Source: Comamonas sp. (GTDB taxonomy: Bacteria; Pseudomonadota; Gammaproteobacteria; Burkholderiales; Burkholderiaceae_C). From it: a DNA stretch of 64,000 nt. Shown piece by piece: positions 49,498-51,799 of the stretch. The DNA is taken from the NCBI GenBank assembly GCA_015478895.1, contig JADMKK010000041.1, positions 1 through 64,000 on the forward strand. The letters are read 5' to 3'. The position numbers and the translations under genes are program-made. Position 1 is the first letter of the stretch, and each line of letters begins with the position of its first letter. The notes below the pieces were generated by a model. That model worked only from the letters and a program-made list of their open reading frames with translations. It did not search any database and had not been told where the DNA came from.

Positions 49498-49947
49498 ATG
49501 AAGCGTACGATGCAAAAGGGTTTCACCCTGATCGAACTGATGATCGTGGTCGCGATTATTGGTATTTTGGCGGCTGTGGCTTTGCCGGCTTATCAAGACT
49601 ACACTGTGCGTTCTAGAGTTTCTGAATTGGCAATTCAAGCTTCTGCAGCCAAAGCATCAATTTCAGAATCCATCATCAATGCCGGGGTAACAACCGCATC
49701 TGGGCTGACTGCATTAGGTTCTGCTGCCTGCCGTGGAGTCACAACAATCGCATCGGCAAATGCAACGAAAAATACAAAATCACTAACCTGCTCAGTTGGC
49801 GTAATCACGGCAACTGGAACGACTGAAGCTAAAGGGGTCGCATTAACGTTTACACCAACCGCCTCTGAACGTGGCGTTTCATGGAAATGTACTACTACAA
49901 GTACAAACTTCAAATACGTTCCTTCTGAGTGCCGCCAATCGTCATAA
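49498..49947 (+). CDS. pilA: Type IV major pilin PilA
   Basis: The 149-residue prepilin has the cleavage/methylation site [32 protein letters not shown], with Glu13 (position 5 of the mature chain), followed by [25 protein letters not shown]. Cysteines 131 and 145 would close the C-terminal loop; Cys78 and Cys98 can form a second pair. The chain ends CRQSS, with serines just after the loop cysteine. AAGGAG precedes ATG 49498. The DNA becomes less GC-rich through the gene (about 48% in the 60 bases from 49801). Terminator follows, then an AT-rich gene. Confidence 0.95.
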
Positions 49948-49967
49948 CACAGTTTAATTTTCCAGAT

Positions 49968-49990
49968 AATGGGGCCCTTGGCCCCATTTT
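49968..49990 (+). terminator. Terminator of pilA, abutting the next start codon
   Basis: AATGGGGCC/GGCCCCATT with a 3-base loop followed by TTTT. The next ATG is at 49993, so the following gene has no room for a standard ribosome binding site and probably depends on read-through. Confidence 0.85.
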
Positions 49991-49992
49991 GT

Positions 49993-51312
49993 ATGAGCAA
50001 AATAAAAATACTATTCTTACTCTTTGTTGTATTAAATATTGAGACTATTTTTTTGTTTTTATTTGACAGAAACGTAAAAAACTATATTCCCATAGAGAAT
50101 ATTTTTGCACTATCATTCCTACTTTTTACAAGGAAAAAGATATTTCACTACGGGCTATACTCATTGCTATTTTTTCTATTTTTTCTGGAGATTATCCCCA
50201 ACACATTTAAAAATCTAAACAAATTAAATATTTACGACAGCCTTATTCTAATAAAAAACCTTGACAATAACTGGAAAATAATTTCCGCTATATTTTTCAT
50301 TGCTGTTATCACTATTCTTATAGCAAAGACGGAGATTTTATTTAGATTAACAAAAAATATTACCCCCTCCCAACACTTATTACTACTAACTTTTATTTCA
50401 ACATTATTAGTGATAGATTTCTACAAAGATGGCAAACAAAACATATTACAAAGCAGAATATTAAATTATCAAAACAGGTACCTTGATATTGAAGGACCTT
50501 TATTTTTCGACAAAACTTCAATTAGGCTTTTACCTTGGAATCACGAAACTGCTACAGATAATTTATTATCAAGCATTAATAAAAAAAAAGCGTTAGTAAT
50601 TGTTGAATCATGGGGAATCCCAAAAAATAAAGAGATTATTAATAGTCAAATTGAAATTTTCAGTGAAATAAAAAATGCAAAAGTCACTTATAAGGAAATA
50701 AAATTTTCCGGAAGCACTATTCACGCAGAAATCCGAGAACTTTGTAGACTATTCCCTAATAGCACGACGATAGATAGCATCCCTAATTCGTCAGAATGCA
50801 TTCCAAATTTATTAAAAAATAAAGGCTACAAAACGTTTGCTTATCATGCAGGTAATGGAGACTATTACCAGAGAAAATATTGGTATCCAGAAATTGGATT
50901 CGATCAGATTCTCTTTTTCTCAGAAGATGCAAAATTCAGAAACTGTTATAGTTGGGCTGGACATTGCGATATCGATTTAGCAGAATTATTTTTCAAAAAT
51001 ATAAAAAAGCATGAGAAGAGTTTTTCATATTGGATGACATTAAATTCACATGCCCCATATGACAAACGAGATATAAAAATAAGTCAAATTAATGATTGCA
51101 AGAAAGTTAATGAAGAAACAAATTCATCAATTTGCCATAACTACTTAATTATAAGAGATTTATTTTTAACAATAAAAAAAGGATTATTTGATTTAGAGGA
51201 TATTGAAATTTTCATAGTGGGGGACCATCCTCCTCCATTTTTCCTTCCGTCAGACCGAGAAAGATATGGAAAAATTGATTTAGTCCCTTCAATCCATATA
51301 AAAATAAATTAA
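49993..51312 (+). CDS. Membrane-bound LtaS/MdoB-like sulfatase-fold transferase, probable pilin-linked
   Basis: This AT-rich gene (hand counts of 23% and 27% GC in two 60-base lines) encodes 439 residues. About five membrane segments fill residues 4-140; the rest is an extracytoplasmic alkaline-phosphatase-superfamily domain. The catalytic positions of lipoteichoic-acid-synthase-type enzymes are all present: Glu205 (VIVESWG), Thr242 (FSGSTIHAE), His353 (TLNSHAPYD) and Asp411-His412 (VGDHPPPF), with spacing close to S. aureus LtaS (255/300/416/475-476). Such enzymes move phosphoglycerol or phosphoethanolamine from lipids. Position right after pilA suggests pilin modification; this is inference. 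Phosphoethanolamine transferase or glycan phosphoglycerol transferase are the alternatives. Confidence 0.8.
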   Translation: MSKIKILFLLFVVLNIETIFLFLFDRNVKNYIPIENIFALSFLLFTRKKIFHYGLYSLLFFLFFLEIIPNTFKNLNKLNIYDSLILIKNLDNNWKIISAIFFIAVITILIAKTEILFRLTKNITPSQHLLLLTFISTLLVIDFYKDGKQNILQSRILNYQNRYLDIEGPLFFDKTSIRLLPWNHETATDNLLSSINKKKALVIVESWGIPKNKEIINSQIEIFSEIKNAKVTYKEIKFSGSTIHAEIRELCRLFPNSTTIDSIPNSSECIPNLLKNKGYKTFAYHAGNGDYYQRKYWYPEIGFDQILFFSEDAKFRNCYSWAGHCDIDLAELFFKNIKKHEKSFSYWMTLNSHAPYDKRDIKISQINDCKKVNEETNSSICHNYLIIRDLFLTIKKGLFDLEDIEIFIVGDHPPPFFLPSDRERYGKIDLVPSIHIKIN

Positions 51313-51316
51313 ATAC

Positions 51317-51799
51317 CTAATTGCTTTTACCACCTTTTTTGTAATTTAGCTTAATTTCATTAAAAAACATCTCTTTATCTACAGCCTTGCACATGTCATA
51401 CACAGTTAGTAAAGCGATTTGCACTGCGGTCAAAGCCTCCATCTCCACCCCCGTCTTGCCATGCAACTCTACCGTCGCTTCACAGCGCACAGCATTCTCC
51501 GCAGGCAATAGCTCAAAATCCACCGCCACACGCGTTAATGCCAAGGGATGGCACAGCGGAATCAAATTGCTGGTTTGCTTGGCGGCCATAATCCCCGCAA
51601 TACGTGCCACGCCCAGCACATCGCCTTTTTTGGCCGTGCCTTTCTGAATAATCTCCAGCGTCTCGGGCTTCATCACAATCTTGCCCTCAGCCACTGCCAC
51701 GCGGTGCGTGGGTGCTTTGCCTCCCACATCGACCATGTGCGCTTGGCCGTGGGTGTCAAAGTGGGTCAGGCCGTCGTTGGGCAAAGGAGTGTGGCTCAT
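51317..51799 (-). CDS. moaC: Cyclic pyranopterin monophosphate synthase MoaC
   Basis: MoaC makes cyclic pyranopterin monophosphate for molybdenum cofactor. The 160 residues have [48 protein letters not shown] and [26 protein letters not shown]. The last 25 residues ([18 protein letters not shown]) use AT-rich codons unlike the rest, though the end GGKS is the family norm. ATG 51799 lacks a strong ribosome site. Its 3' end abuts the AT-rich pilin gene block. Confidence 0.95.

Follow-up and report, generated by a model that had tools for sequence, protein, structure and literature searches.

The gene that directly follows pilA in a Comamonas sp. genome (GenBank assembly GCA_015478895.1, contig JADMKK010000041.1, whose first 64,000 nucleotides we call the window) quite probably encodes a PptB-family pilin phosphoglycerol transferase that forms, together with its partner pilin, an exchangeable cassette. 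This reading is drawn from sequence comparison. The first-pass annotation of this DNA had proposed a pilin accompanied by its own modifying enzyme in such a cassette, and the comparison supports that proposal, both through the alternation of accessory genes in the slot behind pilA and through the linkage to pilin genes of 26 of the 31 rows in the transferase's clade.

A first search of 199 related genomes (E 0.001) returned matches in 10, the host included, and a peptide-pattern scan of species genomes, in which only loci fitting two patterns could be found, returned 56 loci. Of 62 sequences, 25 have a type IVa pilin gene on their own strand no more than 3 kb away, 33 have none, and four are at contig edges (one fragment, L065, is left out of this count). 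In the first tree, from which L037, L028, and L031 were also dropped, 24 of the 28 rows in the window's clade are pilin linked, compared with 0/31 on the other side. The enlarged tree (the first tree plus two loci and the Neisseria gene, with one edge row removed, and excluding L037, L028, L031, L065, and L069) places a pilin gene within 3 kb of 26/31 clade rows and of 0/30 sister rows, with support of 100/99. Thus, the widespread occurrence without pilA that the first-pass annotation had named as counting against its proposal is not seen. The 26 pilin-linked rows represent 23 loci, L024b, L032b, and L034b being tandem paralogues of other clade rows, and L021 was scored as linked by a seemingly broken 61-residue pilin-like frame and a second short motif match. 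Clade members come from Comamonadaceae, Zoogloeaceae, Pseudomonas, Psychrobacter, Acinetobacter, Moraxella, Microbulbifer, Marinospirillum, Chromatiaceae, and others, and their arrangements vary: the transferase gene stands directly after the pilin gene, after TfpX/Z, after a serine hydrolase gene, or before the pilin gene.

Within the window's genus, the slot between pilA and moaC carries O-oligosaccharyltransferase genes, TfpX/Z genes, the transferase gene, or none (48 genus loci plus four with the transferase); this is the alternation of sulfatase-fold genes, TfpO, and others for which the first-pass annotation had proposed to look. The four strongest relatives besides the window's own all lie between pilA and moaC, in the orders pilA-TfpX/Z-transferase (G070), pilA-serine hydrolase-transferase (G019 and G038), and pilA-hydrolase-O-antigen-ligase-transferase (G047). 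The locus combines two traits of pilin accessory cassettes: the gene comes after the pilin gene with a terminator-like hairpin in between, and it alternates there with other accessory genes.

The gene is rare. At E 1e-20, with at most four candidates scored per genome, so that the counts are lower bounds, matches occur in at least 1/369 genomes of the class search (the host's own alone), at least 3/399 of the order search (its own; G178, a sister-clade member; and G780, where a fragment adjoins a pilin gene), and at least 8/339 of the family search. In this last set, G000, G070, G1096, and G266 are pilin linked; the copies in G264, G250, G1097, and G1021 are not and sit, by appearance, in polysaccharide-like loci. 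Weak matches at L016 to L019 were set aside by eye as other families; in L018, a pilin gene lies within a glycan operon. A phage-borne origin was rejected, as the phage collection held no match, and so was a plasmid-borne one: the only two matches in the plasmid collection (NZ_CP119140.1 and NZ_CP119142.1) are from N. gonorrhoeae, each 2.17 Mb long and evidently a chromosome filed under plasmids.

Fold, active site, and kinship with Neisseria PptB

The transferase contains a Pfam Sulfatase domain (PF00884, residues 201 to 362, 6e-14). Glu205, Thr242, His353, Asp411, and His412, noted at the outset for their LtaS-like spacing, are indeed all present and do not vary among the 27 members aligned, and six cysteines of the protein are likewise invariant; the metal-site Glu, Thr, Asp, and His and the nucleophilic Thr of LtaS-type enzymes occur in 27/27 members. 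If residue roles are carried over from the account of LtaS-type active sites in PMC4192460, Glu205, Thr242, Asp411, and His412 are the predicted metal site and nucleophile, and His285, Tyr292, Arg294, and His353 are candidate substrate-site residues. The predicted structure (mean predicted local distance difference test score, 84) has helices at residues 3 to 24 (kinked), 34 to 45, 50 to 71, 92 to 121, and 125 to 144 ahead of the catalytic domain, a pattern that fits the five membrane segments originally claimed. The gene is not a chance frame, because it is open over 439 codons, carries the full catalytic set, and has relatives in many genera. Arylsulfatases use a formylglycine nucleophile of the Cys or Ser type; an ordinary arylsulfatase was ruled out because the nucleophile position is Thr, not Cys or Ser, in all 27 members.

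The five helices would hold the transferase in the inner membrane with its sulfatase-fold domain in the periplasm. At the metal-bound Thr242, the glycerol phosphate head group of phosphatidylglycerol would first form a covalent intermediate; a serine hydroxyl of the pilin would then receive the head group ahead of pilus assembly.

In the plasmid collection, tblastn found one gene in each of the two N. gonorrhoeae records, with 31% identity over residues 183 to 438 (best E, 2e-31). The published meningococcal pptB forward primer for quantitative PCR fits this gonococcal frame with two mismatches, where zero chance matches are expected, and we identify the gene as putative PptB on the strength of the published primers. 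The 27-member profile aligns with it over 446 columns (5.3e-86). In the tree, the Neisseria gene and the Moraxella members are sister groups (100/100) nested in the pilin-linked clade, with support of 100/99 for the whole clade and 99/97 for the inner clade. Neisseria PptB is reported to put phosphoglycerol on PilE, at serine 93 or serine 69 depending on the paper (PMC8445170, PMC10948894). The first-pass annotation had taken Neisseria PptA for comparison; the shared superfold stands, but the nearest characterised enzyme that could be placed is, from the clade, PptB instead, the PptA sequence lying outside the comparison.

Acceptor, donor, and competing explanations

Nine pilins are directly followed by the transferase gene (L020, L023, L025, L027, L029, L030, L033, L043, and the window). 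Every one of them has Ser or Thr as its last residue (Ser in eight), and the last two residues are Gly-Ser in seven; the corresponding counts are 9/65, 5/65, and 0/65 in a class-wide control that takes one pilin from each genome (Fisher 4.4e-7). The control comprises the best 69 of 153 matching genomes by match to the window pilin, less three without a pilin and one cut by a contig end; its neighbouring genes were not classed singly, and the class search of 369 genomes found no clade member besides the window's own. The loci retrieved contain 61 further type IVa pilins (three with the transferase upstream left out, and identical mature pilins counted once), of which 10 have a terminal Ser or Thr. 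The tail count leaves out L001 to L010, L136 to L145, L014, L015, and L037 as duplicates. The directly linked pilins are diverse, with a median identity of 30% beyond the N-terminal helix (36 pairs); those of L020, L023, and L027 are 52 to 64% alike, so that the effective number is below nine. Pilins followed first by a hydrolase gene have a terminal Ser in 1/3.

As linked pairs carry it, the terminal serine is probably the acceptor in directly linked pairs, which for the window would mean the tail CRQSS, a C terminus that translation confirms. The same residue is the reported TfpO site, and Ser or Thr the TfpM site (PMC12645811, Table 1). That the directly linked enzyme caps this serine with phosphoglycerol specifically is, in our judgment, about an even call. 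TfpX/Z-linked members and Neisseria PptB must use other sites.

Several observations weigh against these readings. Neisseria PptB and the genes at L036, L044, and L045 belong to the clade and lie away from pilin genes, and one further unlinked clade row is at a contig edge. The window protein itself sits on a long branch (1.86), a placement that the tree program flags as unsure, and is at most 29% identical to any row over the aligned length. Held out, it scores 287 bits with the profile of the pilin clade and 205 with that of the sister clade, a smaller gap than in the nine other members tested (390 to 486 versus 200 to 269 bits). The published pptB reverse primer has no match in the gonococcal gene within three mismatches, and it fits (by eye, over 20 bases) solely if a printed four-base repeat is disregarded. 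As to the acceptor, pilins separated from the transferase gene by TfpX/Z end in CR in 9/9 cases, the pilins of L012 and L013 end in GTGTP or GSGTP, and where the transferase is upstream of the pilin gene the Ser or Thr end occurs in 0/3; the serine reported for Neisseria PptB (69 or 93) is internal. A gene resembling O-antigen ligases stands after the transferase gene in L025 and L043, where it might explain the terminal Ser. The proposed association with the C-terminal serine holds for direct pairs (9/9 versus 9/65 class-wide) and fails where TfpX/Z intervenes.

The ligase-like genes also bear on a different acceptor. The cassettes of L014/L035, L025, and L043 each include one, and the sister-clade members L060 and L148 to L151 lie in seeming polysaccharide clusters (by eye); the enzyme might thus put phosphoglycerol on a pilin-borne glycan attached by another enzyme rather than on the pilin chain. 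We regard this as rather unlikely, since inspection by eye of about 4 kb downstream shows no ligase-like gene in the window, L027, or L029, the other partner seen in L020 and L023 is a serine hydrolase, and PptB is reported to modify a pilin serine directly (PMC8445170, PMC10948894). L030 is uninformative here, as its contig stops 635 bases on.

With respect to the transferred group, the initial proposal had allowed either phosphoglycerol or phosphoethanolamine. Fold and sequence favor phosphoglycerol from phosphatidylglycerol and disfavor the other. Among 27 members searched with NCBIfam models at 0.01, LtaS matches in 11, phosphoglycerol transferase I-type models give three matches, two further hits are evidently due to chance, and Ept, CptA, and MCR models match none. 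The LtaS equivalog cutoff is not reached: the matches to NF053595 in the 11 members are weak (best, 1.2e-6), and Neisseria PptB scores 21 bits against a cutoff of 970. Structural comparison ranks phosphoglycerol enzymes ahead, with lower Z scores for EptA and MCR-1. A transferase moving phosphoethanolamine, as PptA or EptA do, would share the superfold, and CptA-like transferases occupy the same slot in L011, L129, and L095, making pilin phosphoethanolamine chemistry plausible there; such neighbours, however, match the Ept, CptA, and MCR models strongly, whereas our 27 members do not, and PptB nests in the clade. On these missing matches and fold ranks we rejected phosphoethanolamine transfer as improbable. 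Least probable is an enzyme that modifies lipopolysaccharide or another envelope glycan and stands after pilA incidentally, for although Neisseria pptB and three clade members lack a neighbouring pilin gene, pilin adjacency spans several arrangements and families in the clade and is absent from the sister clade, and pilin tails covary with direct linkage.

The locus and its exchangeable slot

The features of the locus are collected in Table 1. The pilA product matches Pfam Pilin (PF00114, 6e-14) and N_methyl (PF07963, 3.3e-10), one of nine N_methyl matches in the host genome; the transferase is the sole PF00884 gene found there. The gene does lie directly after pilA and is strongly AT rich, as first described, with a guanine-plus-cytosine (GC) content of 29% in the reading frame (26 to 32% in 400-base windows), compared with about 54 to 63% in windows outside the pilA interval. 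The earlier figure of 63% near 52.0 kb was too high, the windows there having 56 to 58%. The right border is a gene that we take, from its translation, to be moaC; sucC, sucD, M48 protease, uvrA, FHA, and PP2C are likewise presumed gene names.

Table 1. Positions of the pilA cassette and its right border in the window
Feature	Position	Strand	Basis
pilA, major type IVa pilin, 149-aa precursor	49498..49947	+	Pfam Pilin, N_methyl, translation
Pilin tail CRQSS, two serines past the final cysteine, proposed acceptor	49930..49944	+	Translation, tail comparison
Terminator-like hairpin between pilA and transferase gene	49968..49988	+	RNA folding versus shuffles
Putative PptB-family sulfatase-fold membrane transferase, 439 aa	49993..51312	+	Pfam, alignment, model, tree
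Presumed moaC, conserved right border of the exchangeable slot, used as anchor	51317..51799	-	Start by eye; open frame reaches 51934

The hairpin has a stem of 8 to 9 pairs, a CTT loop, and a short T tail; its fold z score is -2.04, and 6 of 200 shuffles fold equally well. Each of the nine direct loci has a hairpin 3' of pilA; the z scores of the stretches folded range from -2.0 (window) to -6.4, the hairpins of the window and L030 being the weakest. A consensus terminator scan does not list the window's hairpin, an omission that the short T run probably explains. Terminators between pilin and accessory genes are described in Pseudomonas and others (PMC11841053), and, as proposed for Pseudomonas, the hairpin may keep expression of the enzyme below that of the pilin. 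By eye, nothing like a ribosome-binding site precedes the transferase start codon, which is about 5 bases past the hairpin (49968-49995), so that translation of the transferase may be weak. A start at 49969, within the hairpin, could serve, although 49993 is likelier.

Other occupants of such cassettes are worth recording. A CptA-like phosphoethanolamine transferase gene, a second sulfatase-fold gene, occurs in the same slot in L011 (9202-13168), L129 (4953-8920), and L095 (5396-7117). In L011, which holds both transferase families, it is followed by MFS-like and spermidine-synthase-like genes; L129 has a similar pair by eye, the second gene of which matches aminopropyltransferase models. A beta-lactamase-family serine hydrolase, bearing what we take to be SxxK and YxN motifs, stands beside the transferase in five pilin cassettes (L012 7749-8915, L013 8360-9526, L035 6685-7851, L020 11012-12178, and L023 10738-11946), and PF00144 was detected in the L012, L020, and L023 copies. 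L024, L032, and L034 each have two transferase genes in tandem behind pilA and TfpX/Z, an arrangement that would suit copies with different acceptors or donors. Acinetobacter sp. ANC 3813 (L033 8951-12521) has two convergent pilin cassettes, one with the transferase and one with an O-antigen-ligase-like gene. In Moraxella lacunata (L038 5949-11990), pilin genes flank the transferase gene and the other strand carries a TfpX/Z-like gene; this may be the known invertible pilin region.

Relation to known systems and significance

The enzyme kind and its target were already known; the linkage to pilA, the spread, and the association with terminal serine appear to be new. The first-pass annotation knew of no described system with such a gene in this place, and, by title and opening of abstract, none for a pilA-linked sulfatase-fold or PptB-like gene is described among the matches listed in the open literature, which is weak evidence since subscription papers lie mostly outside it. 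The word sulfatase is absent from the available text of a survey of TfpY-like accessory proteins (PMC11841053).

The window-type genes share with Neisseria PptB a common clade, the active-site residues and cysteines, and, by report, a type IV pilin target for phosphoglycerol (PMC8445170, PMC10948894). They differ in that they travel with pilA and the pilins of direct pairs have Ser or Thr at the C terminus, whereas PptB modifies an internal serine and the 16.8 kb around the gonococcal gene hold no convincing pilin gene, with one 68-residue motif match more than 6 kb off. The resemblance to TfpO/PilO and TfpM is one of arrangement, with a gene near the pilin gene, a C-terminal Ser (for TfpM, Ser or Thr) on the pilin (PMC12645811), and a terminator separating the two genes (PMC11841053); the folds are unrelated, and those enzymes use a lipid-linked sugar rather than a phospholipid head group. 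The superfold, with its membrane part and catalytic domain, is also that of PptA, reported likewise to modify pilin, and of EptA, CptA, and MCR, from which the members differ by their profile matches and structural ranks. LtaS, LtaP, and GacH have the same fold, metal site, threonine nucleophile, and phosphate-binding residues but are Gram-positive enzymes, 14 to 17% identical in structural alignment, that act on glycolipid, teichoic acid, or polysaccharide.

Our comparison suggests that some bacteria exchange pilin jointly with its modifying enzyme. If so, a chemistry described in Neisseria, where pilus phosphoglycerol is reported to influence bundling and dispersal (PMC8445170), would also be present in scattered environmental beta- and gammaproteobacteria, moving between strains with its pilin. 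One class of pilin accessory gene would gain a function, the modified residue would be predictable from the pilin sequence, and the genetically simple pairs would serve for studying how an enzyme recognizes its protein acceptor. By analogy with TfpO and TfpW (PMC11841053), an effect on pilus-specific phages is possible. If the enzyme does cap the terminal serine in directly linked pairs, the pilin C terminus would be a capping site common to the unrelated enzymes TfpO, TfpM, and this transferase, with differing chemistry, and the pilA slot would be a store of swappable pilus coats, glycan and phosphoglycerol, and perhaps also a phosphoethanolamine coat altered further by a spermidine-synthase-like enzyme.
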